This document shows positions 17,412 to 28,963 of a stretch of DNA of 64,000 nt, piece by piece. Within the stretch, counting starts at the first letter, position 1, and each line of letters starts with the position of its first letter. A program made the position numbers and the translations under genes. The notes beneath the pieces were generated by a model, which was given only the letters and a program-made list of their open reading frames with translations, was not told the origin of the DNA and made no database searches. Source of the DNA: Bradyrhizobium cytisi (GTDB lineage Bacteria; Pseudomonadota; Alphaproteobacteria; Rhizobiales; Xanthobacteraceae); assembly GCF_008123515.1 (NCBI RefSeq), contig NZ_VSSR01000016.1, forward strand, positions 1 through 64,000, read 5' to 3'.

Positions 17412-17431
17412 TTCTCCCCTTGTGGGAGAAG
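17412..17431. repeat. attL candidate (20-bp direct repeat)
   Basis: Identical over 20 bp to 28673-28692. It is the CTCCCC..GGGAG hairpin of a dispersed host repeat, located 17 bp after the permease stop. Confidence 0.7.
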
Positions 17432-17471
17432 TATTGCGTTGATCTTATTGGCCTTTTTTGGCCAGTGTCCA

Positions 17472-17488
17472 GCCGGTGTAAAAAACAG
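17472..17488. repeat. sub-terminal repeat, possible integrase arm site (left)
   Basis: GCCGGTGTAAAAAACAG; matches 28544-28560 at 16 of 17 positions in the same orientation. It lies 41 bp inside attL; the right copy lies 112 bp inside attR. A short palindrome TGGCCTTTTTTGGCCA lies just before it at 17449-17465. Confidence 0.5.
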
Positions 17489-17558
17489 ATTTATTTGCTG
17501 GAAGGTGCCCGAAAGGCCGGCGAGCGACCGAAGCCGCTCGCCGAGTCGCGATTGATCT

Positions 17559-17777
17559 TTACGCCGTGCGCCCGATGCGCTGGGCGGCTTCGTCCTTGCT
17601 GCCGGCGTGCGTGATGCCCTTGAGCACATGGTTCACGGCGCGCGGGTTGATCACATAGGCCGCTGCGATCTCGTGCTGGTACTGCCCGCTCCAGCGGCGC
17701 AGCCACACGTCAACAGCTTCTTCGAATGTGAACTTGGTTTTGCGGGGTTGGTTGTCTTGAACGACCGGACTAGCCAC
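17559..17777 (-). CDS. small helix-turn-helix protein of the element
   Basis: 72 aa. The C-terminal half (GQYQHEIAAAYVINPRAVNHVLKG) fits a helix-turn-helix of the kind found in small phage regulators and next to homing endonucleases. GTG at 17777 has AAGGAG eight bases upstream and is clearly better than the earlier starts in this frame. It is the last gene before the left att site. It could regulate the element; no partner is obvious. Confidence 0.65.
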   Translation of the reverse strand: MASPVVQDNQPRKTKFTFEEAVDVWLRRWSGQYQHEIAAAYVINPRAVNHVLKGITHAGSKDEAAQRIGRTA

Positions 17778-18073
17778 GCTAGGGTCTCCTTGTGGTTGAT
17801 GGACATGCGAAAGCATTTTCAGCGACAAAAGCCACGGAAAGCCGAGCCCGCGTGCAAAGTGTGCTCGGCTTTTCCATGCGTGATTCGGGATCACGTCCCC
17901 CAGTAGGCCAAAGCCGTTGGGGTCGCGCAAGGTGGCGCGGAAAGCCATCCGTTTCAAGGGATTGGGGACTGGTTCCCCACGATTTACAGGCATAAGCCAA
18001 TAGCGCCGCCCCGGTCAAAATGACCTATCCCCAAAAGATCACCTTCGGCGAGATGGCGCGAAGTCGGCGCGCC

Positions 18074-18835
18074 TTAGTCGTTTTGAGCCGCCAGCCGTGC
18101 GGCTTCCGCTCGCTGCCATCGTTCGGTGGCCTTCATCTCATCCATGAGGGCGACCACCCTGTTTTCCAGCGTCGTTAAGTGGCCGTCGAAGCCTTCGATG
18201 AACTCAATGACGTTGCGCCCTTGGTTGACTTCCCGGAAGAGCTTCATCACGTCGAGTGCGACGGCCGCCGCTAGCCATAGATCAAGCTTGACGTGATATT
18301 CGTCTTCAACGTCGAAAAATGGCGCATGAGCCTGATCGCCTTCAACGCGGAAGACGCCGTGCGATGCGACGACGTTCGCGTGAGTCTGCGACTCGTTGAG
18401 CATGTCCTTTTTAGCCTTGATCGCGTCGGAAAATGGTTTGTGGTTTTGCGCCAACCAATCGTAACGCTTGCCGGGAAGTTTTGGCGGAAGAACGAGCAGG
18501 CCATTTTCCCATTTAAAGAAATGTTCGTCGCCGGGATTGGCGATAGCGAAAGCGGCGTGCGCGCCAGCTTCGAGAACTTGGCGCAGATTCCACATTGCTT
18601 GCGACTTGTGCAAGCGAACTGCCGACATGATCGCTAGCAGATGATGCTTTTTCAGGATCGCAGTAAAGCGGCCGACGTGCATCCGGTCGTGGTCTATCGC
18701 AACAATGCAACGCGAAAGAAAAATCGAACTCGCGCGGGCTTCGACCCAGTGCTTCCCGAAGCGAGCTTCGGCCTCCAGCACCATTTGCCGTTCGCTTTCC
18801 GCCAGCTCCTGAAGCGTAGATTGAGGATAGGTCAT
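18074..18835 (-). CDS. unknown alpha-helical protein, possible cargo
   Basis: 253 aa, no signal peptide or membrane segment, mostly helical. The segment AVRLHKSQAMWNLRQVLEAGAHAAFAI resembles the central helix of DUF5677/HEPN-like proteins, but this is weak. C-terminal about 60 residues look like a coiled coil (LTTLENRVVALMDEMKATERWQR). Its place near the attachment site, flanked by 296-bp and 207-bp spacers with its own likely promoter, is where satellites keep accessory (often anti-phage) genes. Function unknown. ATG at 18835 chosen over the longer ORF because of the coding start MTYPQSTLQELAESE. Confidence 0.6.
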   Translation of the reverse strand: MTYPQSTLQELAESERQMVLEAEARFGKHWVEARASSIFLSRCIVAIDHDRMHVGRFTAILKKHHLLAIMSAVRLHKSQAMWNLRQVLEAGAHAAFAIANPGDEHFFKWENGLLVLPPKLPGKRYDWLAQNHKPFSDAIKAKKDMLNESQTHANVVASHGVFRVEGDQAHAPFFDVEDEYHVKLDLWLAAAVALDVMKLFREVNQGRNVIEFIEGFDGHLTTLENRVVALMDEMKATERWQRAEAARLAAQND

Positions 18836-19042
18836 GCGAATCGCCTTTGTCGCGCGTTTATAACACGGTCCGCGCCACGCTGGCCGCAGCGTCATCCGAG
18901 GGAAGGTGCGGCCGAAGTCTCCTTCGCCGGCATGAACGAGCACGACCGGCAGCGCGTCACCGCCGCTCCACTAACGGATCGTTCATGCGATGGGGTGAAG
19001 GTCAGAGCTGATGCCATCTCCCGCTAGGAAGGACCAACCACT

Positions 19043-19171
19043 GTGACCGATGAACAATTCGACGAGATAGCGACCGCGTGGGAAAACTTTGAGGACGAAC
19101 CTAATCCTCGGACGGCTTGCGCGCTGTTGGAAGCAAACAACCCGGACCGCTATCGCCAGCGCGACCGATAA
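19043..19171 (+). CDS. small acidic protein
   Basis: 42 aa starting at GTG 19043, with AGGAAGGA nine bases upstream. The product is acidic (about 11 Asp/Glu) with sequence EQFDEIATAWENFEDEPNP and a basic end RYRQRDR. It is the only plus-strand gene suspected inside the element and its 3' end overlaps the 3' end of the zinc-finger-like gene on the other strand by 22 bases. I do not recognise it. Confidence 0.4.
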   Translation: MTDEQFDEIATAWENFEDEPNPRTACALLEANNPDRYRQRDR

Positions 19172-19494
19172 CGTGCCTGCCGACAAGCGTCGCTGCATGA
19201 CTGCGCGTCGGAGCGGCGCGGCGTGAAGCTCTTGCCGCATCCTGCGCATTTGCGTGGCTTGACGACGGTGCGCAGCTTGGCACGGCGGTGACGCCAGTAG
19301 CACGCCTTGGAGCAATGATAGACCAGCGGTCGCCCGATTGCCGACGCACACCCACCCACGCCGCACTGCCAGCGTCGTCGAAGGCGGTCGTAACCGGAGC
19401 TGAGGTCGATGCAGGGGTCGCCGCAGTGGATGGCCGCGCCGCACTTCAGGCAGCGAACGGGCTTGCAGGCTTCGGCGTGCTTCACTCGTGGCAT
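19150..19494 (-). CDS. cysteine-rich, zinc-finger-like protein
   Basis: 114 aa. Two Cys clusters: CLKCGAAIHCGDPC near the N-terminus and CAGCGKSFTPRRSDAQSCSDACRQARYR at the C-terminus; the latter fits a CxxC-x13-CxxxC zinc ribbon common in small phage proteins. A central C/H pair (YHCSKACYW) may add a third site. Strongly basic, so nucleic-acid binding is likely. The start is uncertain: ATG 19494 is used, GTG 19512 is possible. Confidence 0.6.
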   Translation of the reverse strand: MPRVKHAEACKPVRCLKCGAAIHCGDPCIDLSSGYDRLRRRWQCGVGGCASAIGRPLVYHCSKACYWRHRRAKLRTVVKPRKCAGCGKSFTPRRSDAQSCSDACRQARYRSRWR

Positions 19495-19527
19495 AGCACT
19501 CAAGTGTAACACGCCAGCATGCGCAGA

Positions 19528-19620
19528 TCATCCCGCCATCATCACCGCCAGCACGACCAAGATCGAGACGATGGCCACGAAGGCCAGCGCCTCGATGTTC
19601 GACAGTCGCCACACCGTCAC
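19528..19620 (-). CDS. 30-residue single-pass membrane peptide
   Basis: GTG at 19620 overlaps the stop codon of the upstream gene as GTGA. The product is VTVWRLSNIEA followed by an 18-residue hydrophobic run ending VLAVMMAG. The size and topology would fit a small holin-like or regulatory membrane peptide, but nothing else supports a function. Confidence 0.45.
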   Translation of the reverse strand: MTVWRLSNIEALAFVAIVSILVVLAVMMAG

Positions 19621-19838
19621 CAGCCGAACTTGCTGACGCCGTGGTGGTGCAGTCGCGACGGGTTGAGATGTTCGCGCTGCACCTCGCGCACGACGCGACC
19701 GATCAGGCCGGCGCCGATCTCCGGATGGCGCGCCAGCTCGGCGGCGACATCGCGCAAGAACTGGCTGCGCTGGTGCGGCTGCAGCGGCGCGGCGGCGGCC
19801 ATGACGGTTTGCAATTCGGTGTCGGTGAGCGAGATCAC
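19617..19838 (-). CDS. small conserved protein of rhizobial elements
   Basis: 73 aa: VISLTDTELQTVMAAAAPLQPHQRSQFLRDVAAELARHPEIG. I recall closely similar small proteins of unknown function in Bradyrhizobium islands. GTG at 19838 with GGAG ten bases upstream is preferred over a TTG eight codons earlier. It is preceded by three identical-core palindromes (19865-19957) and is the first gene of a short leftward run including the membrane peptide. Confidence 0.65.
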   Translation of the reverse strand: MISLTDTELQTVMAAAAPLQPHQRSQFLRDVAAELARHPEIGAGLIGRVVREVQREHLNPSRLHHHGVSKFGW

Positions 19839-19864
19839 GGGTGCGGCACTCCAGATTTCCAAAA

Positions 19865-19957
19865 TTACCTCGCGCGGTAATTTGGGATTTTCATTTACCC
19901 TGCGCGGTAAATCGTTTTCGGTCGCCTCGCGGCCTAATCTCTTACCGCGCGCGGTAA
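19865..19957. promoter_or_regulatory. three TTACC-N6-GGTAA palindromes (operator candidates)
   Basis: 16-bp dyads at 19865-19880, 19895-19910 and 19942-19957, all TTACC-NNGCGC-GGTAA (N2 = TC, CT, GC), with starts 30 and 47 bp apart. They lie between the stop of the gene ending at 19963 and the start at 19838, so they could control the leftward genes. Confidence 0.6.
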
Positions 19958-19962
19958 GAGAT

Positions 19963-20328
19963 TCACTTCACCGCCTGCCGCTGCCCGGCCTCGACACGCG
20001 CAATCGCGGCCAACGGGTCGGCCTCGTAGATGCTCAAACCGAGCGACCGCAATTTCCGGACGATCTCGGCGCCTTCGCGGCGGCCGGACGCATCGCTGAA
20101 CGGCACGCGCAAGGCGTCGTCGAGATGGTTGGCGATGGTGGGCGAGCACGGCGGAAGTTGCCACGGCTTCAGATTCAGCGCGGCCGATTGGCAATGACAG
20201 GCGCAGGATCTCGCGGCACTTTCCCAGCCGCGCTCGGCGAGCCATCGATCAACGCGACCGTGCAGCGCCGGATCATGGCGCGCGAGGTCGAAGGCGCGCT
20301 GCAGGGCGTCGCGGTCATTGTCGTCCAT
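19963..20328 (-). CDS. unknown element protein
   Basis: 121 aa; MDDNDRDALQRAFDLARHDP start, then LAERGWESAARSCACHCQSAALNLKPWQLPPC and a C-terminal DPLAAIARVEAG. I recall this pattern (CxxHxQxxALNLKPWxxPPC) from rhizobial phage-like islands; no function is known to me. ATG 20328 follows GGAGG at ten bases. It overlaps the terminase small subunit gene by 14 bp, so the two are likely co-translated and may both serve packaging. Confidence 0.65.
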   Translation of the reverse strand: MDDNDRDALQRAFDLARHDPALHGRVDRWLAERGWESAARSCACHCQSAALNLKPWQLPPCSPTIANHLDDALRVPFSDASGRREGAEIVRKLRSLGLSIYEADPLAAIARVEAGQRQAVK

Positions 20329-20731
20329 CGCGCGCGGCCTCCAACGCGAATTTCTCATAGCCGCTGATCAGCTCGGGCTCCGACGACGGCGACGGCACCA
20401 GCAGACGCGCGGAGGGATTCAAGCGCAACATTCTCGAATAGGTGCTGATGGTCCGCTTCGCGTCCGCCAGCACGTTGAGCCAGCCGCTCGGCTTGCCATC
20501 CGCCATGACATAGCCGTCAGCCGCGAGTCCCGCGCTGGCGGCCTTCTCCTGCACGATGGCGCGGCAAAAGACGGCCAGCGTCGGCGCATCGCTCGCGTTG
20601 AAATGATCGGCCCTCGTGGCGATCACCAGATCGCAGAACACGCTCCTCGCGGCGCCGGCCAAATCGTCGGGCGGCTGAATGCGGGTGGTGGGTTCGGAGA
20701 ACGGCAGGGTGGCACTGGATCGGCGGGGCAT
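20315..20731 (-). CDS. phage terminase small subunit (P27-like)
   Basis: 138 aa. RSSATLPF.., a central helical part (LAVFCRAIVQEKAASAGLA) and the tail WLNVLADAKRTISTYSRMLRLNPSARL match the P27-type terminase small subunit, which recognises the packaging site on phage DNA. No large terminase gene is found nearby, so packaging would need a helper phage, or the gene is a relic. Start at 20731 lacks a clear ribosome site. Confidence 0.65.
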   Translation of the reverse strand: MPRRSSATLPFSEPTTRIQPPDDLAGAARSVFCDLVIATRADHFNASDAPTLAVFCRAIVQEKAASAGLAADGYVMADGKPSGWLNVLADAKRTISTYSRMLRLNPSARLLVPSPSSEPELISGYEKFALEAARDGRQ

Positions 20732-21411
20732 CAGCTCGGCTCCGGTTGGACGGCGGTTCGCTGGCGGTCCGGGCGGCCCCCAGCGATTTGGACCGGCGGC
20801 CAGCCCCAGACACCGGGCGGGAGCGAACGGCGCTCCAGCGGGCTCCGGACGGCTTTTCCGGGTCGGGTGCGATCATGAGCACTATCGCGGCGGTTGAAAA
20901 GGGGTCGAAACGGCTGGAACCGGGCTCGTAGCATAAATCTACTGCCGTTCCGACAAAGTTCCATCGGCACAACCGCCAAGTGTTCCACGTAGGGTTCCAA
21001 CTGTGCATCCGCGTTGGAGGATATGGAACCCGGCAAAAAGTGGACCTGCCCCTCAGCCCCCAAAGACGATCAGACGGCCTTGCGGGCCTTAACTGGTGCG
21101 TTTGCCCTTGCCAGATGGCCTTTGCCAGCTCGCCAGCCGATCCAACGCATGGGCGGGCTTTGTAGGGCCTCGCACCTTGTGGGCCTTAACCCGCTGATCT
21201 AATTGGGCTCTTAGCAGCCTGACACGCATCTCTAACCTTTTGATTTCGCTACATTATTTCTAGAAAAATCTCGAGCGGCGATCACACGGGCCGGTTGCGG
21301 TTCCGGAGAAGGACTTTCCAAAAGCCAGCACCGGGTTCCATTGCAGCCGGTGCGCGTCCGATGCCTTTGAGACTGGTCATTTCAGTTTACAACCTGAGAT
21401 CAGCATCGCGG
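20732..21411. other. 680-bp non-coding or uncertain stretch of the element
   Basis: No convincing gene. A plus-strand ORF of 60 codons from ATG 21020 (MEPGKKWTCPSAPKD..) has GGAGG only four bases upstream and no recognisable family. The stretch 21180-21330 is AT-richer (CTACATTATTTCTAGAAAAATC) and could hold a promoter for the minus-strand genes or a packaging or recognition site for the terminase small subunit, which starts at its left edge. Confidence 0.4.
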
Positions 21412-21636
21412 TCAGGCCACCAAACCGAGCGCCCTGAGCGCGTTGGCCTGCAGATTTTGCAGCAGGACGTGGAAATAGACCTCGCGCGGGCTCGCCGTCT
21501 CCGGCAGCTTCGGCAGTGGCGCCGCGATCTCCTCGACCAGCCGCGCGAAGTAGCGACCATCATCGATCATGGCGTCGCCGACCAGCGACTGATGCAGCTT
21601 GCGGATCACCTTGGCGGGCTCGTCGTCATCACGCAC
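21412..21636 (-). CDS. small acidic helical protein of the element
   Basis: 74 aa: VRDDDEPAKVIRKLHQSLVGD..RYFARLVEEIAAPLPKLPETASPREVYFHVLLQNLQANALRALGLVA. GTG at 21636 overlaps the end of the upstream gene by eight bases. Predicted soluble and helical. Function unknown. Confidence 0.55.
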   Translation of the reverse strand: MRDDDEPAKVIRKLHQSLVGDAMIDDGRYFARLVEEIAAPLPKLPETASPREVYFHVLLQNLQANALRALGLVA

Positions 21637-22171
21637 GGCGGCCTCGCAGCGGGTTCGGCAGATCGATGATGCGCGCGGACCGCGCTCGCTTGGCCTTCTG
21701 CTCGGCCAGCCACTTTGCGCGGTTGCGCGCTCGGATCGGCCCCATGATGGTTTCGTCAACCGGGTGATCGACGGCGCGGAGGATCGGGCCATGCAAATCG
21801 GCGTCCTGCTTCGTGCCGTCGTCATCGAGGTAAAAGAATTCCTCGGCCGGTTGCGGCTGCGCCTTCGCCATTTCGGCGCGCAGCTCGGCCACCAGACCCT
21901 TGAGCACCGCGCGCGTCACCGGGCGCATCTGCTTGCTCTCGTGATAGCCGACGACGGCGGCAATGATCCGGTCGTCGATCCACTTTTGCCATCGCAGCGT
22001 TTCGGAATCGGTCAGCGAAGGCGCTGCGCGCTCAGGCTCAGGCACGGGTTCGGGCTCGGGCCGCTTCCAATATTCAGTGGAGTGATCGCGGTGCTCGACC
22101 GTGATGCCGGCAGTGCGCGCCAGTGTCGCGCGGGCTTCTGCGAAAATTCTGCGGCCACGTTCATCCATCAC
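21629..22171 (-). CDS. unknown element protein with Pro/Glu linker
   Basis: 180 aa. N-terminal helical part (FAEARATLARTAGITVEHRDHSTEYWKRP), a PEPEPVPEPE linker at about residues 36-45, then WQKWIDDRIIAAVVGYHESKQ and a basic C-terminus ARNRAKWLAEQKAKRARSARI. Starts just after the capsid stop codon (GTG 22171 or ATG 22168). Its place right after the capsid gene suggests a structural or assembly role; unproven. Confidence 0.55.
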   Translation of the reverse strand: MMDERGRRIFAEARATLARTAGITVEHRDHSTEYWKRPEPEPVPEPERAAPSLTDSETLRWQKWIDDRIIAAVVGYHESKQMRPVTRAVLKGLVAELRAEMAKAQPQPAEEFFYLDDDGTKQDADLHGPILRAVDHPVDETIMGPIRARNRAKWLAEQKAKRARSARIIDLPNPLRGRRA

Positions 22172-22172
22172 G

Positions 22173-23273
22173 TCACCATGCCGTTGTCGTCAACCATGCC
22201 ACCGCGCGCGGGTCGCGCTTCGCCCACGTCACCGGCCAACGTACCCTGAGCCCCAGCATATCGGTCTGGAATAGCGATTGCGACGTTGCTGCGACGAGCG
22301 GCGGCGTGCCGTCCGTGCTGATGTTCGTCGGCATGTCGTCCATGTGGATCAGGGACTCGGTTGACTCACTGATTTGCGGCGTCGTGCCTGTCGCGCTGAC
22401 GATGGCAGGAGGCGCGACCGCGATCAGATCATCGGCGGCGATTCCATTGGTCGGCAGGATGACGAACGATGAATTGAGCGCAAGGCCGATAGCGTCCAGC
22501 GGCATCGTCCGGGCGCGGGCCGGTTCGGCGAGAAGAACAATCGGCTCGGTCCTGCTCACAGCAGCCACGACACGGGTCAGCGTCTTGATGTCGGCGATCA
22601 TCGCGGCGGTCGGATCGCTCGCCGCGCTGGCGGTGCTGGCCGCGACGCCGTTGCGTAGACCGGCCGGACGTTCGTCCGCGATGGCAGGATTGCTGTCGAA
22701 CAGCGCTACGTCGAGCGCGAGGCCGACGCTTTGCACTAGAGCATCGCCAACCATCTTCTGCGCATTGCCAGCGCTGGCGTTGCAAACTTCGTTGCTCAAA
22801 ATGGTGAGGGTGGCGAATTTGTTCGGCTCCAGCTTGAGTGACGAGGCCAGCAACATGCGGACCGGGATCGGCGCACGTTCACGGACAAAACCCACAAGAC
22901 CAGCATCGGCGATGAACGACGGCACGCTGATCGTTTCGTACCTGTTGAATTTCAGTTGCAGCGTCTTGTCGAGCAGGATCGATCCAGCCGAGACGGCCGC
23001 GAGCGCGGCGATGACGTATTCCGTCAAAGTCTGGGTCAACGCAGGCGCGTCCGACGTACTGGTCGGATCGACCGCCGCCTTGACCACCAATCCGACTTTC
23101 GTGTCTTTCGGCCACATCCGCGCGGCGACTTCAATCGGATTTTGCTTGGGCGAATCGCGACGCTCGGCGGCGAGAACATGCGCGGTCGCGGCGCGCGTGA
23201 AGATCGCGAGTCCAGCGCGGCGCGTGGCATCGCGGTCGGGTCGGAGCGGAATTGGTTCAAGGTCTGGGCTCAT
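22173..23273 (-). CDS. HK97-type phage major capsid protein
   Basis: 366 aa. Pattern matches HK97-fold capsids: PSFIADAGLVGFVRERAPIPV (P-domain entry), SSLKLEPNKFATLTILSNEVCNAS (the conserved K..vs-E motif), GDALVQSVGLALDVALF and GLRNGV (glycine-rich loop). There is no long N-terminal delta domain and no separate protease gene. ATG at 23273 is used; the ORF stays open 119 codons further upstream but that part is low-complexity Ser/Arg and opposite to another gene. Without portal and tail genes the capsid may be used only for a small satellite head. Confidence 0.68.
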   Translation of the reverse strand: MSPDLEPIPLRPDRDATRRAGLAIFTRAATAHVLAAERRDSPKQNPIEVAARMWPKDTKVGLVVKAAVDPTSTSDAPALTQTLTEYVIAALAAVSAGSILLDKTLQLKFNRYETISVPSFIADAGLVGFVRERAPIPVRMLLASSLKLEPNKFATLTILSNEVCNASAGNAQKMVGDALVQSVGLALDVALFDSNPAIADERPAGLRNGVAASTASAASDPTAAMIADIKTLTRVVAAVSRTEPIVLLAEPARARTMPLDAIGLALNSSFVILPTNGIAADDLIAVAPPAIVSATGTTPQISESTESLIHMDDMPTNISTDGTPPLVAATSQSLFQTDMLGLRVRWPVTWAKRDPRAVAWLTTTAW

Positions 23274-23337
23274 GGCCGGCAGGATGGCACGGCTTCCGGT
23301 TGGCCGATGAAGTAGGGTCACGGTTTTTTTCGTCAGC

Positions 23338-23817
23338 TCACGTCGGAGGCCGATACGGCTTGTGCTCGATGGGCGGGAATCGGAGAGCAGCGGCCGACGC
23401 CTTGACCTGTTCGATGCTCGCCTCATGCTCTTCCCGCGAAAGCCGGGGCACCTTGAGAGCGACGGATGCCTCGATGCGCTGCCGATCATCAATCGAGATG
23501 CGGTTACCGAGCTGATCGAGTCGCTCGTAGGCCGCATCCCAGAAGTAGCGGCGCTGGTGATCAATTTCGATTCTGCTCTCGGTGATGCTCGCGAGCCATG
23601 CCACATGCTTTTGGCGCGGCTTGCCGTCAATCCTCACGCTCTCGACGATGACGGCAGTCCATCGCACATCCTGCCCGACCGATCCGTCAGCGCGATGTCG
23701 CGTGCGCAGATAACTCCCGCGCGCGTTGCGAACGAGGCCAAACTCGTCGCGCAACTGTGGCCCATAGTCGCCAATGTCCGGCTGCTGCCGCTTTCGACTC
23801 TGCCATCGCACATACAT
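23338..23817 (-). CDS. unknown element protein
   Basis: 159 aa, basic. Contains YGPQLRDEFGLVRNARGSYLRTRHRADGSVGQDVRW, GKPRQKHVAWLASI, and a helical C-terminus RQRIEASVALKVPRLSREEHEASIEQV. I recall such proteins next to the small Arg-rich gene that follows in rhizobial islands but no function. ATG 23817. Confidence 0.6.
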   Translation of the reverse strand: MYVRWQSRKRQQPDIGDYGPQLRDEFGLVRNARGSYLRTRHRADGSVGQDVRWTAVIVESVRIDGKPRQKHVAWLASITESRIEIDHQRRYFWDAAYERLDQLGNRISIDDRQRIEASVALKVPRLSREEHEASIEQVKASAAALRFPPIEHKPYRPPT

Positions 23818-23871
23818 GGCCGTAGTGTCCCAACTTCGTCCAATGTGATCAAGTTAATGCACTACGCTTTC

Positions 23872-24126
23872 TCACCGCTTCGCCGCGTCCGCCGCTTCCG
23901 TCAGCCCGCGCGTGATCGCCTCGCCCATCTTGCCCGCATCGTCGGCGTCGGCCTCGTCGAGCCAGTGCACGCCGCGCACCAGATAATCGAGCAGCATTTC
24001 GCCGACCCTCACGGGCGCGATGGCAACGCGATCTTTCTTGTTCTGCCGGTAGCGTCGCTGCGCCAGCCGCCGACGCTCGCGCTTGGCGGCGCGGCTGCGG
24101 CGGCAGGATGGTGGGCGGGTGAGCAT
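23872..24126 (-). CDS. small Arg-rich protein
   Basis: 84 aa. The N-terminal third is strongly basic (RRSRAAKRERRRLAQRRYR), followed by VAIAPVRVGEMLLDYLVRGVHWLDEADADD. The pattern of a basic RxxRYRxR stretch followed by a short beta/helix unit recurs in small island proteins. Nucleic-acid binding is likely from charge. Its ATG overlaps the previous stop as TGATG, so it is coupled to the upstream gene. Confidence 0.6.
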   Translation of the reverse strand: MLTRPPSCRRSRAAKRERRRLAQRRYRQNKKDRVAIAPVRVGEMLLDYLVRGVHWLDEADADDAGKMGEAITRGLTEAADAAKR

Positions 24127-24602
24127 CAGTGCAGCGTGCTACGCGCGGCTGGCGGCTCGGTGAGGCGGTGCGAGTGCTTTTCGAGAAACGCTCTCGCGCG
24201 CTCCTGAACCGCATGCACACTTTCGAGGATCGCATCACTCGCCGCTCGCCGATCTAAATCAAACTCGGCGCGGAATTCATCGTCGATCCGGCGGAGAGCG
24301 GTGGCGTCGGCCTCGTCCATCCGCGCGCGCACCCACGGCGCATCGTTGGCATGACCTTGTGCGAACGCCTTGGCCTCCTGCAGGCTCTTCAGGCGAACAT
24401 TGTGGATGTATCTCACGTACCATTTCCCCGATGATCGACCGACCGCGAAGCGGGCGATGTGATACCCAATGACGCCGGTCGGACGGCCGCCGGGGCCGCG
24501 AGTTTCCCATCGATGAATTTCATATCGGCGCTTGGCTGCGGTCTGGGATTTCCAACCGTCCTTGCTCGTGCGCCGCCACTTCAGTTTGGTTTGCCGGATC
24601 AT
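24126..24602 (-). CDS. unknown element protein
   Basis: 158 aa, basic N-terminus (MIRQTKLKWRRTSKDGWKSQTAAKRRYEIHRWETRG), then a beta-rich unit (YHIARFAVGRSSGKWYVRYIHN) and a helical C-terminus. The beta unit with GKWYVRYIHNVRLKSLQEAKAFA resembles small nucleic-acid-binding or DNA-transaction domains (WxVxxxxx..G.F.s.~eAk.~A), but this is weak. First gene of a four-gene leftward run; the iteron-like cluster is upstream of it. Confidence 0.6.
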   Translation of the reverse strand: MIRQTKLKWRRTSKDGWKSQTAAKRRYEIHRWETRGPGGRPTGVIGYHIARFAVGRSSGKWYVRYIHNVRLKSLQEAKAFAQGHANDAPWVRARMDEADATALRRIDDEFRAEFDLDRRAASDAILESVHAVQERARAFLEKHSHRLTEPPAARSTLH

Positions 24603-24744
24603 GGATCATCTCCGCTGCGCGTTGCCGGCATCCGGCCGGCGCGGGTTAAGTTTCTGAACCTAGCTTCGTCCGCCGCATCGCCTCCTGCGCGCTCCAACGC
24701 GGTGCCGGCGGCGCGTGCTTGGTTTGGATGTCGCGGCCCCAAAT

Positions 24745-24838
24745 CCCCTGCATGCATGCAGCCTGCACGCTGCATGCAGGGGTTATAGGGGGGGCGCGTA
24801 CAGGGGAGCGTGCAGGAAGCGTGCAGGGAGCGTGCAGG
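24745..24838. promoter_or_regulatory. iteron-like repeats and large inverted repeat (replication origin candidate)
   Basis: Inverted arms CCCCTGCATGCA (24745-24756) and TGCATGCAGGGG (24771-24782), then GGTTATAGGGGGGG, then three direct copies of AGCGTGCAGG at 24807-24816, 24818-24827 and 24829-24838, spaced exactly 11 bp. They end two bases before the stop codon of the RepA-like ATPase gene. Confidence 0.6.
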
Positions 24839-24839
24839 G

Positions 24840-26228
24840 TCATGGGGACCACCCCCTTCGCACGATGCGGCTGGTGCCGCGCGAGGCGGCGCCGTACGGT
24901 TCCACGGCGACCTTGGCGGCGGCTATCAGCCGGTCGAGGGCGTCGGCGAAATGGCCGGTGGTGAACTTTGCCGCCTTGCCTTCGGTGGTCTTGGCGAACA
25001 GCGTCGGCGCGTAGTTGTTCGCGTTCTGCTTCGGGCTGACGTTCTCGCCCTTCGCCGTGAACCTGTCGAGCAATTGCAGGAAGAGCGCATCGGCCGCCGC
25101 GTTCCTTGCCGCCTGCTCGGGCGCACTCGGTGCGCGCACCGGCACATACAGGCCGTTCGCCCATTGCAGCTCCACGCGCTCGGACAGTGCCGAGTAATTG
25201 CTCTTCATGAACTCCAGCACGCGGGTGCCGCTGCGGTCGTCGCTCTCGATGTGCATGTACGCGCGGGCGCGCATCGAATTGTGCCATTGCGTGCTTCCGC
25301 TCAGCCCGGTCTTGCTGGCGATGCCCGCGACGCTGGGATGGCTCGACATGATGACGTAGCCATTGGCCGCGATGGCGATCTGCCTCATCAGCGCGACGAA
25401 TTGCCGAACCTGACTGCGGTCAATCTCGCTGCCGCCGTACACGTCGGCGACGTTGTCGATCACGGTGCAGATCGGCTGCACGGCGCGCGCTCGCTCCAGC
25501 AATTGGGCATAGAGCGGCGTCGGCACGATGCGCCCGCTGCGATCAGGCAGCGCCAGCAACGGGTCTTGGTTGGCCAGCGAGAACACATGCAAGTCAGCCG
25601 CGATGTCGCTGAATTTCGCACGATAATTTTTCAGGATGGGATCGAGGCGGCGCACCAGCTCGTCGCCTTCGTCCTCGCAATTGACGAGCAGCACCGGCCC
25701 TTGCTCGGGCATCGAGCGCAGCCAATCGCGACCCAGCGCATGGGCGACGGCCAGTTGCAGCAGCGTGATCGATTTACCGACTGCGCCTTCGCCAGACAAC
25801 AGACAGACGGCACGTCGCGGGAAGCGGTCGCGCACGCCCCATTCGCGCTCCGGGATCGGCGCGGTGTCGTACTTAGCCAGATCGATCCGCGCCAGTTCGG
25901 GCGGCGGTGCGGGGTCGGTCGGCGGTTGCTGCTCGCGCCCACGATCCGTGCCACGCGCTGACGCACTTCCATCATCGTTAGCGCGGCGAAGTGGGATCGC
26001 GGCTTCGGCCTTGGCAAGCGCGAGCTGGTCTTCGAGAGCCTCGCAGAAGCGAAGCTCGGGTGGCTGCAGTCTGGTGATGCCGTATGATTTGTGGCGATAC
26101 TCGTGCAGCAATTGTGCCTGCTGAAAAGAAAGCTGCGGCGCTTCCTGTCGAATGCAGGCGATCTCGTATCGATCAGAGTCGGTCAGGGTGAAGCGCGAGC
26201 CGTCGAATTGGGTGTCGGTGATCTTCAT
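24840..26228 (-). CDS. RepA-like AAA/RecA-fold ATPase of the element
   Basis: 462 aa. Residues about 120-380 form a RecA-type hexameric-helicase fold: Walker A LLSGEGAVGKS (about 143-153), PVLLVNCEDEGDEL, Walker B region PICTVIDNVADVYGG and SHPSVAGI downstream, as in RSF1010 RepA and satellite replication ATPases. The N-terminal 110 residues and C-terminal KNSNYSALSERVELQWANGLY region fit. Role by homology: helicase for replication of the excised element. Adjacent iteron-like repeats support this. Its ATG at 26228 has no clear ribosome site. Confidence 0.78.
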   Translation of the reverse strand: MKITDTQFDGSRFTLTDSDRYEIACIRQEAPQLSFQQAQLLHEYRHKSYGITRLQPPELRFCEALEDQLALAKAEAAIPLRRANDDGSASARGTDRGREQQPPTDPAPPPELARIDLAKYDTAPIPEREWGVRDRFPRRAVCLLSGEGAVGKSITLLQLAVAHALGRDWLRSMPEQGPVLLVNCEDEGDELVRRLDPILKNYRAKFSDIAADLHVFSLANQDPLLALPDRSGRIVPTPLYAQLLERARAVQPICTVIDNVADVYGGSEIDRSQVRQFVALMRQIAIAANGYVIMSSHPSVAGIASKTGLSGSTQWHNSMRARAYMHIESDDRSGTRVLEFMKSNYSALSERVELQWANGLYVPVRAPSAPEQAARNAAADALFLQLLDRFTAKGENVSPKQNANNYAPTLFAKTTEGKAAKFTTGHFADALDRLIAAAKVAVEPYGAASRGTSRIVRRGWSP

Positions 26229-26317
26229 ATTGCGAAGCCCGATGGATTCGCGCTACACGTCACCCGCTCTTTGCTGGAGCAACACTCAGGTGACAATCTC
26301 CATTGTTGTCGGTTGCG

Positions 26318-26341
26318 CCGCCCCGGTCTCCACCGGGGCGG
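26318..26341. other. hairpin upstream of the ATPase gene
   Basis: Perfect 9-bp stem CCGCCCCGG/CCGGGGCGG with a six-base loop, in the 236-bp spacer between the split ORF and the ATPase gene. It lacks a T-tract on either strand, so it is not an ordinary terminator. Confidence 0.45.
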
Positions 26342-26464
26342 TCGCGCATCGGCAACAGTGAAAGGCGCGAAGGCGGTGCCTGATCTCGGTCAGGTCCGCG
26401 CAGTGGGTTTCGGCTTGCCCGCCGGTTTGCAGCTCAGCACGGACATTGCGGTCCGTGGTCGTTC

Positions 26465-26680
26465 TTAACTGTTCACCTCGACGTTCTCCGGCGTGGCGTA
26501 GACTCCAATCGCTTCGCCGTTCGGAAGCAGAATGTCGATTTCCTATGCGCCATCTTGCAAGACGAGCGTGACGCTGCACCCGGTGGCGCAGACCGCTGGC
26601 GCGTTCTTGTCCTTCGTGAAGCCGAGCCGCACGAGTTGGGCGAAACCGTTGATTCCGGAATCCGTGATGTGGGTATCCAT
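26465..26680 (-). pseudogene. small element gene split by one in-frame amber codon
   Basis: From ATG 26680 the frame encodes 45 residues (MDTHITDSGINGFAQLVRLG.. ending VTLVLQDGA), then TAG at 26545-26543, and continues in the same frame for 25 residues EIDILLPNGEAIGVYATPENVEVNS to TAA at 26465. The two parts read as one coherent small domain. A single-base change of CAG or similar to TAG explains it. It starts four bases after the excisionase-like gene ends, so they are likely co-transcribed. Family unknown. Confidence 0.6.
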
Positions 26681-26684
26681 GGGC

Positions 26685-26996
26685 TCAGGCCTCCGCGCTC
26701 GCGGCTTGAGAGGCAGTGCTCTCTTTCTGCGTCGTGGCCTTTCCGCCCTCGCGCCACGCCTTGGCAGCTTCGACGCTGATCCGGGTGGCGTGTCCGATCT
26801 TCTTGATCTCCGGCCCGGTGCCGGTGCGCGCCATGCGGTAATAGGTTTCGAGGCTGATGTTGTGCGCCTCGCAGAACTGCGGGATCGTGTACATCGTCGA
26901 TTCAACCGGCAGCTTCGCCTGCTCGGCCTTCGCCTTCTTAAGTTTTTCCTTCGCGGTGACGCGGGGTTTTTTTGGGCCGGTCTTTTTGCGAGCCAT
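26685..26996 (-). CDS. AlpA/excisionase-like MerR-fold DNA-binding protein
   Basis: 103 aa. Lys-rich N-terminus (KKTGPKKPRVTAKEKLKKAKAEQAK), then a winged helix-turn-helix MYTIPQFCEAHNISLETYYRMARTGTGPEIKKIGHATRISVEAAKAWRE, the excisionase/AlpA pattern (PQF..ISx..YYRM..G.GP..xKIG..~RIS~.~~..W). It probably directs excision with the integrase and may regulate the replication gene downstream. The long basic N-terminus is unusual for AlpA. Confidence 0.8.
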   Translation of the reverse strand: MARKKTGPKKPRVTAKEKLKKAKAEQAKLPVESTMYTIPQFCEAHNISLETYYRMARTGTGPEIKKIGHATRISVEAAKAWREGGKATTQKESTASQAASAEA

Positions 26997-27208
26997 GGCG
27001 GCGACTCCACTCGATGGATACTGCCGCTAAGCTACCGCTCGTGTTGTTGCGCGCGCAAACCAGCGCACAGCCGCGCGCTTTCCTTAAGCCAGCTTTTTAG
27101 GCCGAGTTTTATTGAAAGGCCTGACAGAATCCGTTTTGAGATTTTTTTTCGAGCGACGGCGCGATGCCGGCCGGCGGCACCGAAACGGCGCGGCGAATCA
27201 TGGGAACT

Positions 27209-27250
27209 GGCAAAAGAAAACCCGGCGCCGCGAACGACACCGGGTCTAGG
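27209..27250 (-). terminator. intrinsic terminator after the integrase gene
   Basis: On the minus strand ACCCGGTG..CGCCGGGT (8 bp, one G-T pair, ten-base loop; plus-strand arms 27220-27227 and 27238-27245) followed by TTTTCTTTT. It lies 28 bp after the integrase stop codon. Confidence 0.75.
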
Positions 27251-27272
27251 TTCAGATGTTCTGAAGGTGGCC

Positions 27273-28520
27273 TCAGCTCGCCATCGCCATGTCGGCATCG
27301 TCGTGATGCAGCAGCGCCCGGCGGCTGATGTCGTCAGCGTGTTCAACGATGAACTTCGAATAGTGCCGCTCAATCGCCGCGACGGATGTGTCGTGCGAGG
27401 CCGCGACGATCCGCACCGGGACGTTGAGCAGCAACGCGCGCACGATGCTGCTGTGCCGCAAGGCGTACATCGACACCGTGTCGGGGTCCTCCCCGATGGC
27501 GGTGACGACGGCGCGGATGTCCTCGCGGTAATTGTCGCTCGGCCGCTCGCCCCATGGCGCGCCATCGGCCTGCAGCAACAGCGGCGCATCCGGCGCCCGG
27601 CCCTTTGCGGCGGCCTTCAGCTTCAGCGCCAGCGCCGCAGTGATCGCCACCGAGAAGCGCTCAGCCTTGCGCGCAGCGCGGTTCTTGGAGCCGCCCTTGC
27701 CGCTCTTCGGCATCCGCAACCGTGGCGCCTTCGGATGCACCACCAGATCGGCGACCAGCAGCCGCGACGCCTGCGACGGTCGCGCGCCGGTCACCGCCAG
27801 CGTATCGACGTACAGGCCGAGCGCGCCGTCGCGCACATAGGACGCGCGGACGAAGGCGCTCACCTGCTTGTCGGCCAAGATGACGTTGCGGTCGTTGTCG
27901 GCGTCGGGCAGGCTTTCGAGGCCAACCTCCCAAGCGTCCGCGTTGACGATGCGCGGATCGTGCCGCGCCGCCAGCTTCAACGCGGTGCGCAGACACTTCA
28001 GCATCCGGTTGATCGATGAATCCGCCAGCGCGCCCCCGATCAGGCTGTCGCGCCATTTTTTCAGCTCGGTCGCGGACAACATCGCCACCGGCTTCATCAG
28101 CAGCGCGACGCTCAAATGCTTGCGCGGCATCCGCGCGTTGTAGATCGAACCTTGGCGCGCTTCGAGATCGCGCTCATAAGCGGTCAACGCCTGATCGACG
28201 TTGACCGGCGCGAAACTACTCGCGGTCTCGGTGTCGCTGTCGCCGCGTGCCACCGTGCGCGCCTGCTTGATCGCCTGATCGTAGTTGAACACGCGCTTGT
28301 CGTCGGCGGGCTCCATGTCGTCGGCGATGCCGAATTTGCGCATCCAGCCATTCGGACTGCCATCAGCGAAGCGCACGCTCCACGTTCCGAAGCCGCTCGC
28401 ATTGCGCCGATAGCCGAGCGCGATGTGCGGCGCGACGCGAACGAAATAGGACGCCTTGCGCGGCGTGAGCTTGGCGCGCGCGGTCGGAGTCTCCAGCGCG
28501 ATCTTGCGGGGCTTGGGCAT
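27273..28520 (-). CDS. tyrosine recombinase/integrase
   Basis: 415 aa. N-terminal arm-binding part, core-binding SAM-like helices (VDQALTAYERDLEARQG..), then a catalytic domain with box I TGARPSQASRL (catalytic Arg), a Lys in the beta hairpin (MPKSGKGGSKN), box II YALRHSSIVRALL, ASHDTSVAAIERHYSKFI with His and the nucleophilic Tyr. In box II the usual first His of H-x-x-R is Tyr (MYALRHSS); the Arg is kept. The gene is the last one before the right att site, and the start at 28520 is the first ATG. It is the enzyme expected to have inserted the element. Confidence 0.9.
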   Translation of the reverse strand: MPKPRKIALETPTARAKLTPRKASYFVRVAPHIALGYRRNASGFGTWSVRFADGSPNGWMRKFGIADDMEPADDKRVFNYDQAIKQARTVARGDSDTETASSFAPVNVDQALTAYERDLEARQGSIYNARMPRKHLSVALLMKPVAMLSATELKKWRDSLIGGALADSSINRMLKCLRTALKLAARHDPRIVNADAWEVGLESLPDADNDRNVILADKQVSAFVRASYVRDGALGLYVDTLAVTGARPSQASRLLVADLVVHPKAPRLRMPKSGKGGSKNRAARKAERFSVAITAALALKLKAAAKGRAPDAPLLLQADGAPWGERPSDNYREDIRAVVTAIGEDPDTVSMYALRHSSIVRALLLNVPVRIVAASHDTSVAAIERHYSKFIVEHADDISRRALLHHDDADMAMAS

Positions 28521-28543
28521 GGCGGAAGCGTCCTCGGTTTTAA

Positions 28544-28560
28544 GCCAGTGTAAAAAACAG
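28544..28560. repeat. sub-terminal repeat, possible integrase arm site (right)
   Basis: GCCAGTGTAAAAAACAG, 16 of 17 identical to 17472-17488. A shorter TTAAGCCAG overlap (28540-28548) recurs at 27084-27092 upstream of the excisionase-like gene. Confidence 0.5.
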
Positions 28561-28963
28561 CGGTAGCCTAGTGGCAGATAAGCACCAGCATAGCGTCAGC
28601 TAGTTTCACATGGCATTTCAAGGGGTTACGCGCAAGTCTAGCACCGTCCAGCGCTACGCTACAACTTGCAAATTCTCCCCTTGTGGGAGAAGGTGGCGCG
28701 AAGCGCCGGATGATGGGTTCTCTCAGCACGCTCGACTGCAAGAGGCGGACTCGCGGAGACAACCCCTCACCCGTCTCGCCGCTATCGCGGCGAGCCACCC
28801 TCTCCCACAGGGGGCCCACAGGGGGAGAGGGTAAAAATACCGCAGCTCCCTACTTATTTCTCACCCCTCTTCACCCGTCCCCTGCTTTGCGACCGCGACC
28901 GTTTCTCGCTAGAACAGTCCCCGCAACAAAGCCCCAAACAACAATGCTGAGGGAGAAAACGAC
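28561..28963. other. intergenic region with attR and a dispersed repeat
   Basis: 28561-28672 is the right end of the element and carries no gene. 28673-28692 is the attR candidate and begins a dispersed repeat (TTCTCCCC..GTGGCGCGAAGCGCCGGATGATGG) whose inverted counterpart CACCCTCTCCCACAGGGGG..GGGGAGAGGG ends near 28830. 28831-28963 should hold the promoter of the binding-protein gene. Confidence 0.7.
28673..28692. repeat. attR candidate (20-bp direct repeat)
   Basis: TTCTCCCCTTGTGGGAGAAG, identical to 17412-17431, continuing directly into the GTGGCGCGAAGCGCC part of a host repeat. Confidence 0.7.

Follow-up and report, generated by a model that had tools for sequence, protein, structure and literature searches.

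The window, i.e. the whole 64-kb stretch of DNA analysed here, contains an integrated element. One of its genes encodes a predicted helicase and is immediately followed by a block of short repeats. The features are:

17,432-28,692, no strand: integrated element of about 11.3 kb; in relatives the flanks adjoin without it
17412-17431 (left) and 28673-28692 (right): 20-bp direct repeat TTCTCCCCTTGTGGGAGAAG at the element ends; a single copy at the unoccupied site in relatives
20315-20731, minus: terminase small subunit, TerS (phrog_83, 3.1e-11; Terminase_4, 6.5e-6)
22173-23273, minus: HK97-type major capsid protein P0004 (phrog_617, 1.1e-16)
24745-24782, no strand: palindrome with arms CCCCTGCATGCA (24745-24756) and TGCATGCAGGGG (24771-24782)
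24762-24771, plus: exact inverted copy of the iteron, beyond the core and inside the palindrome
24779-24794, minus: C-run/TATAA/C-run core, GGGGTTATAGGGGGGG; in gene sense CCCCCCCTATAACCCC
24796-24806, minus: degenerate fourth iteron, GCGTACAGGGG on the plus strand, recognised by eye
24807-24816, 24818-24827 and 24829-24838, minus: three exact iterons AGCGTGCAGG (gene sense CCTGCACGCT), 11 bp from start to start
24840-26228, minus: predicted RSF1010-RepA-type helicase P0001, 462 aa (Pfam AAA_25, 2.3e-30)
24843-25133, minus: likely winged-helix domain at the C-terminus of P0001, residues 366-462, the proposed reader of the iterons (pLDDT 90.9 when modelled alone)
24870-24893, minus: wing loop, residues 446-453, covarying with the iterons (residue 452 above all)
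26685-26996, minus: excisionase-like HTH protein P0003 (phrog_66, 1.9e-8)
27273-28520, minus: integrase P0002 (phrog_1, 3.9e-11)

In all eleven relatives compared, the DNA to the left of about 17.4 kb adjoins the DNA to the right of about 28.7-28.85 kb, and the insertion is absent. The aligned flanks overlap by exactly the 20-bp TTCTCCCCTTGTGGGAGAAG in five of these relatives (L266, L268, L269, L274, L276) and by 16 bp in L270; in the remaining five the flank alignment begins only further in. Thus the empty-site overlaps delimit the element to about 17,432-28,692. The insertion site TTCTCCCCTTGTGGGAGAAG is itself part of a repeat dispersed through the genus. Within the element, both ends also contain GTGTAAAAAACAG, at positions of approximately 17476 and 28548 as counted by eye; these copies are perhaps integrase arm sites.

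Capsid-forming satellites have their own capsid and packaging genes and no tail genes. The element looks like a phage satellite: it encodes a capsid protein and TerS, and no large terminase, portal or tail gene was matched among the 14 element ORFs compared with PHROGs and the 12 compared with Pfam. No primase was recognised in the element among the ORFs searched against these two collections. The small ORFs between the repeat block and the capsid gene have no family matches. A 289-aa ORF at 18074-18943 within the element has no Pfam or PHROGs match.

In the sense of the gene (minus strand), the ATPase stop codon (24840-24842) is followed by three copies of CCTGCACGCT, the degenerate unit, CCCCCCCTATAACCCC, and the palindrome with one inverted unit. 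The preliminary description had reported three direct 10-bp units at 11-bp spacing and a GC-rich inverted repeat; indeed, the units at 24807-24838 are exact copies, and the arms are perfectly complementary over 12 bp. The distance to the ATPase stop codon, given there as two bases, is a single base (24839). Exact AGCGTGCAGG occurs four times in the window, always within the block. When one mismatch is allowed, there are 13 matches in the window compared with 8.2 expected, and 11 of 100 shuffles reach 13. Thus the notable feature is the exact, phased clustering. The array in the window is short (three exact units) and the DNA is GC-rich, as would be the case for chance or low-complexity repeats devoid of function. 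However, the probability of that explanation is negligible, as the tandem pair GCGTGCAGGNNGCGTGCAGG has only two overlapping matches in the 8.85-Mb genome, both inside the block, and the layout recurs in relatives far above controls (see below).

The protein had initially been called RepA-like, and this agrees with two comparisons. The best solved relative in a family profile search is RSF1010 RepA (3e-18), and the four best Foldseek matches of the AlphaFold2 model of P0001 (mean pLDDT 87) are RSF1010 RepA chains. From sequence and model, the ATPase core is assigned to the RecA fold of the RSF1010-RepA type, with predicted helicase activity. The C-terminal domain is likely a winged helix. A Foldseek search with this domain alone (the last 97 residues) yielded no match under E 0.001. 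In a VIA-align search with the same residues the best rows are largely winged-helix proteins, and the top row is the winged helix of DNA-bound SAMD1 (Z 9.6, rmsd 1.8, 71 aligned). The assignment is based on VIA-align and predicted secondary structure; as the VIA-align Z values are modest, the modelled fold is graded as likely, not proven.

Related loci were gathered by protein searches blind to the downstream DNA. This produced 261 loci, two of them being a plasmid and a phage record. After 67 loci had been dropped (no C-terminal domain, no closed frame or less than 260 nt downstream), 194 were left, and removal of 37 near-duplicates resulted in 157 non-redundant relatives. The open frame is at least 600 codons long in 32 of the 157. 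Ten long relatives were scanned for domains: Prim-Pol was found in five (two of them also with PriCT_2), PriCT_2 alone in one, Toprim matches in two (one below the Pfam cut-offs), and neither domain type in two.

An array, defined as at least three copies of one 7-mer in the 240 nt past the stop codon, is present in 126 of the 157 relatives. The rates in controls are 3-12%: 8/152 upstream of the gene, 8/156 at 240-480 nt, 19/154 at 600-840 nt, 16/157 within the ORF, and 24/785 in shuffled sequences. The C-run/ATA/C-run motif was found in the same 240 nt in 106 of 157 relatives (controls in the same order: 1/152, 0/156, 0/154, 0/157 and 29/785). The distances between repeats peak at 10, 11 and 12 bp (208, 625 and 310 counts), then at about 22 and at 32-35. 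An inverted copy of the locus's own unit lies beyond the core in 58 of 94 relatives, compared with 111/1880 in shuffles and 155/773 with units taken from other loci. A stricter joint criterion recovered the module within 260 nt in 118 of the 157 relatives and further on in three, and did not detect it in 36. This tally scores L230 as inverted despite a TTCCAAC-type array in sense orientation, and L088, scored as far, is a weak match; no conclusion is based on these two loci. Two controls for this criterion gave 0/148 and 0/88. Among the 36 are evident arrays that lack the standard core (L002, L217) and loci in which nothing could be recognised (L030, L040).

The layout is kept among the relatives and the repeat letters vary. 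Conservation of the iterons beside related ATPases had been set in advance as the point on which the idea of an origin would stand or fall; in most relatives it holds for the geometry of the array, and it does not hold for its letters. The 126 arrays have 69 different top 7-mers, the most frequent being TTCCAAC (22 loci). The number of distinct units is lower than 69, since register shifts of one unit are counted separately (TTCCAAC, CTTCCAA, CCTTCCA). The most conserved DNA feature of the block among relatives is the core stretch GGTTATAGGGG, with C-rich variants containing ATA, TTATA or TATAA. In L168, L185, L217 and L239 the C-run/ATA/C-run core is replaced by a short TATA palindrome, e.g. 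CCCTATACTACGTATAGG in L168.

The position of the module relative to the gene is not fixed. It is inverted relative to the ATPase gene in L179 and L184, and it lies about 1 kb downstream in L087 and L159. In four loci (L207, L153, L235, L175; perhaps also L148), the array and core are within the 3' end of the reading frame, and the proteins have proline-rich tails. Inverted modules in two loci and modules inside the frame in four are what would be expected of a DNA site. They argue against the block working at the RNA level (a terminator or a 3' structure in the ATPase transcript), which its position directly 3' of the stop codon and a possible hairpin would allow. No terminator-like site was found, and Rfam produced three weak microRNA matches only, far under the gathering scores. 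Besides, such a role would leave the covariation described below unexplained, and we consider it extremely unlikely.

The covariation of protein and DNA was analysed in the 98 of 157 loci that have both an array and a core; 88 of these were used for units, and the automatic assignment of units is off register in a few rows. Array similarity, measured by 5-mer spectra, follows the identity of the winged helix when ATPase identity is corrected for (partial rank correlation 0.32, 0/500 permutations); the correlation with ATPase identity corrected for the winged helix is 0.08 (38/500 permutations). In a scan of 315 protein columns, the top four are 452, 451, 447 and 449, all in the wing. Their scores were equalled or exceeded by the permutation maximum in 0, 3, 12 and 18 of 300 permutations, respectively. 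The fifth column, 319, belongs to the ATPase domain (22/300). Thus columns 452 and 451 stand out, and the others are suggestive.

To lessen the effect of relatedness, 44 disjoint nearest pairs of loci were taken. Of the 27 pairs with different residues at 452, 25 also have different units, compared with 5 of the 17 pairs that share the residue (p 2e-5). Residue 452 is the best of 347 columns, the next column having p 0.0027. Position 451 shows no significant association with the unit in the disjoint pairs (p 0.61). In the whole set, G451 is found with CTG-type units in 7 of 10 loci, compared with 19 of 78 others (p 0.006). The pair in the window, wing SRGTSR and unit CCTGCAC, fits this G451/CTGC pattern by eye. 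Arginine at 452 accompanies CTnnC units, mainly CTTCC, in 45 of 50 loci, compared with 9 of 38 without arginine. V452 is mostly found with CTTCA types, and Y452 with CTTCGAAC in two of three loci (by eye).

The rule that R452 occurs with TTCC was framed after the column scan and the pair test and was then tried on unused loci. Of 51 loci from new genomes, seven repeats of earlier loci having been excluded beforehand, 28 were dropped (no C-terminal domain, closed frame or 240 nt downstream), as was one near-duplicate. The 22 new loci contain an array in 19 cases and a core in 12. At least three copies of TTCC are present in 11 of 13 new loci with R452 and in one of six without it (p 0.0095). 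The leftover set, from which L043 and L254 were excluded, gave 7/10 and 2/18, respectively (p 0.003). Thus there are exceptions on both sides: 2/13 and 1/6 in the new genomes, 3/10 and 2/18 in the leftover set. One of the 11 agreeing new loci, L331, probably agrees by chance, since its top unit is different (TGCGGCG). The new locus L318, with wing SRGWTR, has CCTGCAC units like the window. A second ATPase of the same family is encoded in the genome of the window (L019/L026, G000:C143, at about 109-110 kb); its array is TGCGATC/TTCTATC and its wing is SKGTKC.

Since the array follows the winged helix and wing residue 452 covaries with it, the helicase itself probably binds the array. Another conceivable role of the block is that of a packaging (cos or pac) site recognised by the terminase. 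The element does have TerS and a capsid gene, and in the viral locus L199 terS comes soon after the ATPase gene; however, the repeats covary with the winged helix of the ATPase, and a packaging site is very unlikely. Covariation of the letters with the winged helix is what is expected of an initiator and its binding sites, and thus the architecture of a small replicon origin suggested at the outset now appears well supported by the comparison of the 157 relatives.

The analysis itself demonstrates the repeats and their conserved layout, the kinship of the helicase, the prediction of a winged-helix fold, the covariation of iterons and wing, and the element boundaries. On this basis, the block is probably the replication origin of the 11.3-kb integrated, phage-satellite-like element, recognised by the element's own RecA-fold helicase via its winged helix; we estimate the probability of this reading at about 0.78. 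The C-terminal winged helix would read the iterons through the wing and place the helicase beside the C-run/ATA/C-run core, where the latter would assemble. The initiator would thus load itself, the helicase carrying its own origin-recognition domain, and replication of the excised element would start at the core. Synthesis would be started by a primase, attached in some relatives and perhaps supplied by the host or helper in the element of the window. The iteron sequence would be particular to each element, and the wing would match it. In this scheme we infer that the helicase forms a hexamer and binds the iterons directly, that the DNA opens at the core, that the element replicates once excised, and from where primase and polymerase are supplied.

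The opening step is the weakest part of the mechanism, because no consistent AT-rich stretch that could serve as an unwinding region was found across 88 loci. The 30-mer with the lowest GC content is within the array in 21 of them and near the core in 24; in the other 43 it is found at a greater distance. In 22 of the 88, a long spacer between iterons contains four or more consecutive A/T bases. The ATA of the core is a candidate opening site only.

A different role of the array is conceivable: the ATPase may act on it to regulate copy number, partition or the expression of its own gene, replication starting elsewhere in the element or depending on helper-phage machinery. Recognition of the array by the protein is the most that the covariation can demonstrate, a search for an AT-rich opening site at the array found none, and there is a second candidate replicon on a plasmid that has a similar block (see below). 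On the other hand, the array follows the gene and not the promoter region (upstream arrays in 8 of 152), the protein is a predicted helicase that in some relatives is fused to primase domains, and the known analogues with such a layout are origins (PMC6092414, PMC7581432). A control site is therefore unlikely, and an origin remains the preferred reading.

The closest precedents come from other satellites and mobile elements. SaPI Rep and SCCmec Cch2 use their C-terminal domains to recognise iterons that directly follow their own genes (PMC7581432). According to PMC6092414, a PICI rep-ori segment is sufficient to drive plasmid maintenance, and PICI origins consist of two iteron sets on either side of an AT-rich region; the P4 alpha protein and its cognate ori are mentioned there as well. 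SaPIs and PICIs, as described in these two papers, are integrated satellites with int, xis and a helicase-type initiator, whose gene has an iteron origin immediately on its 3' side. In the window, the element has int, xis, terS and a putative origin in the same position. Unlike in these PICI origins, there usually is one direct array and an inverted copy around a C-rich core, not two sets flanking an AT-rich region, and the helicase is RSF1010-RepA-like. SCCmec Cch2 is described in PMC7581432 as an MCM-like 3'-to-5' helicase; on its own, the C-terminal domain binds direct repeats located immediately behind the gene, which is analogous to the arrangement proposed here; however, the origin region is highly similar among SCCmec elements there, whereas here the unit varies widely. 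Thus three features set the module apart from the SaPI and SCCmec precedents: the class of helicase, a core rich in C and a unit that varies strongly.

The likeness to RSF1010 concerns the ATPase domain, RepA-like by both profile and predicted fold. In RSF1010 the iterons also adjoin the replication genes, a separate RepC protein binds them and a separate primase acts. The difference is that here the likely winged helix is attached to the helicase. In satellite phage P4, the alpha protein combines helicase (and primase) with origin recognition. The P4 helicase differs from the RSF1010-RepA type seen here, and we know of no ori array of such type 3' of its gene. In kind, an iteron origin beside its initiator is ordinary; the parts and the visible link between wing and iterons are unusual.

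A broader reading is that the modules form a widespread replicon family of alphaproteobacterial mobile elements, in which a RecA-fold helicase finds its own origin and the winged helix reads hypervariable iterons, spaced by 10-12 bp, by a simple residue-to-base code of a few wing residues (452 above all, perhaps 451, 447 and 449). Opening would occur at the C-rich ATA core and not at an AT-rich region, and origins could diverge independently via the loop and the repeat. We offer this as a tentative proposal whose chances are slightly below even. If it is true, the elements could evolve mutually independent origins by changing one loop and a short repeat.

Joint change of specificity in an origin and its initiator is hard to study. 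About a hundred natural initiator-origin pairs with one layout, differing repeats and few candidate residues in one loop make the recognition code directly testable, and such a code could yield compatible small replicons. The layout also is a sequence signature for finding such elements and origins in Alphaproteobacteria. In the literature searched, we found no description of this iteron/core/helicase module and little on satellites in Alphaproteobacteria.

Relatives of the ATPase are common in these bacteria. For profile A1, distant ATPases included, genomes with matches number 128 of 265 at the genus level and 105 of 397 at the order level; for profile A5, they number 111 of 296 at the family level and 69 of 385 at the class level. 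The named hosts include Prosthecomicrobium, Paracoccus, Devosia, Mesorhizobium, Rhizobium, Bosea and many Rhodobacteraceae (in one search, among the best 80 of 219 matches). Gene content shared with the element in the window was sought by tblastn in 86 long loci: an integrase-like gene was found in one, a xis-like gene in one, and the capsid protein, P0005 and TerS in none. Thus the elements around the module differ.

In a 12.3-kb viral contig from IMG/VR (L199), the ATPase and a primase form one fusion protein; the compact gene set recognised with it comprises TerS, TerL, portal, head protease, head decoration and integrase. No tail match was found among the ten proteins searched, and the gene set is as in a capsid-forming satellite. 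Tail genes are present near L107 and L172, and thus prophages probably use the module too. Terminal direct repeats, as a sign of circular forms, were absent in all 33 viral contigs examined end to end, and a viral-contig scan with the P0001 sequence alone found no relative. Few members are found among annotated plasmids and phages: queries for plasmids produced 3, 1 and 1 records, and those for phages 14 and 22, mostly distant helicases.

The circular 39.7-kb plasmid pR24_3 of Microvirga terrae (L264) has a distant AAA_25 ATPase beside a toprim gene, and a similar block 3' of it. At 25932-27400, near five ATCAAGG repeats, the same plasmid encodes an HTH protein of 424 aa that weakly matches phage replication-initiation families. 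The GC skew points to neither candidate replicon. With a second candidate replicon and an uninformative skew, the plasmid is ambiguous as independent proof of the origin and was set aside.

Distant AAA_25 ATPases without the C-terminal domain (L010, L013, L020-L023, L044-L051 and similar loci) are outside the counts given above. Judged by eye, short repeats and a palindromic C-run/G-run site often lie 3' of their genes as well, e.g. CCCCTAGAGGGG in L021.
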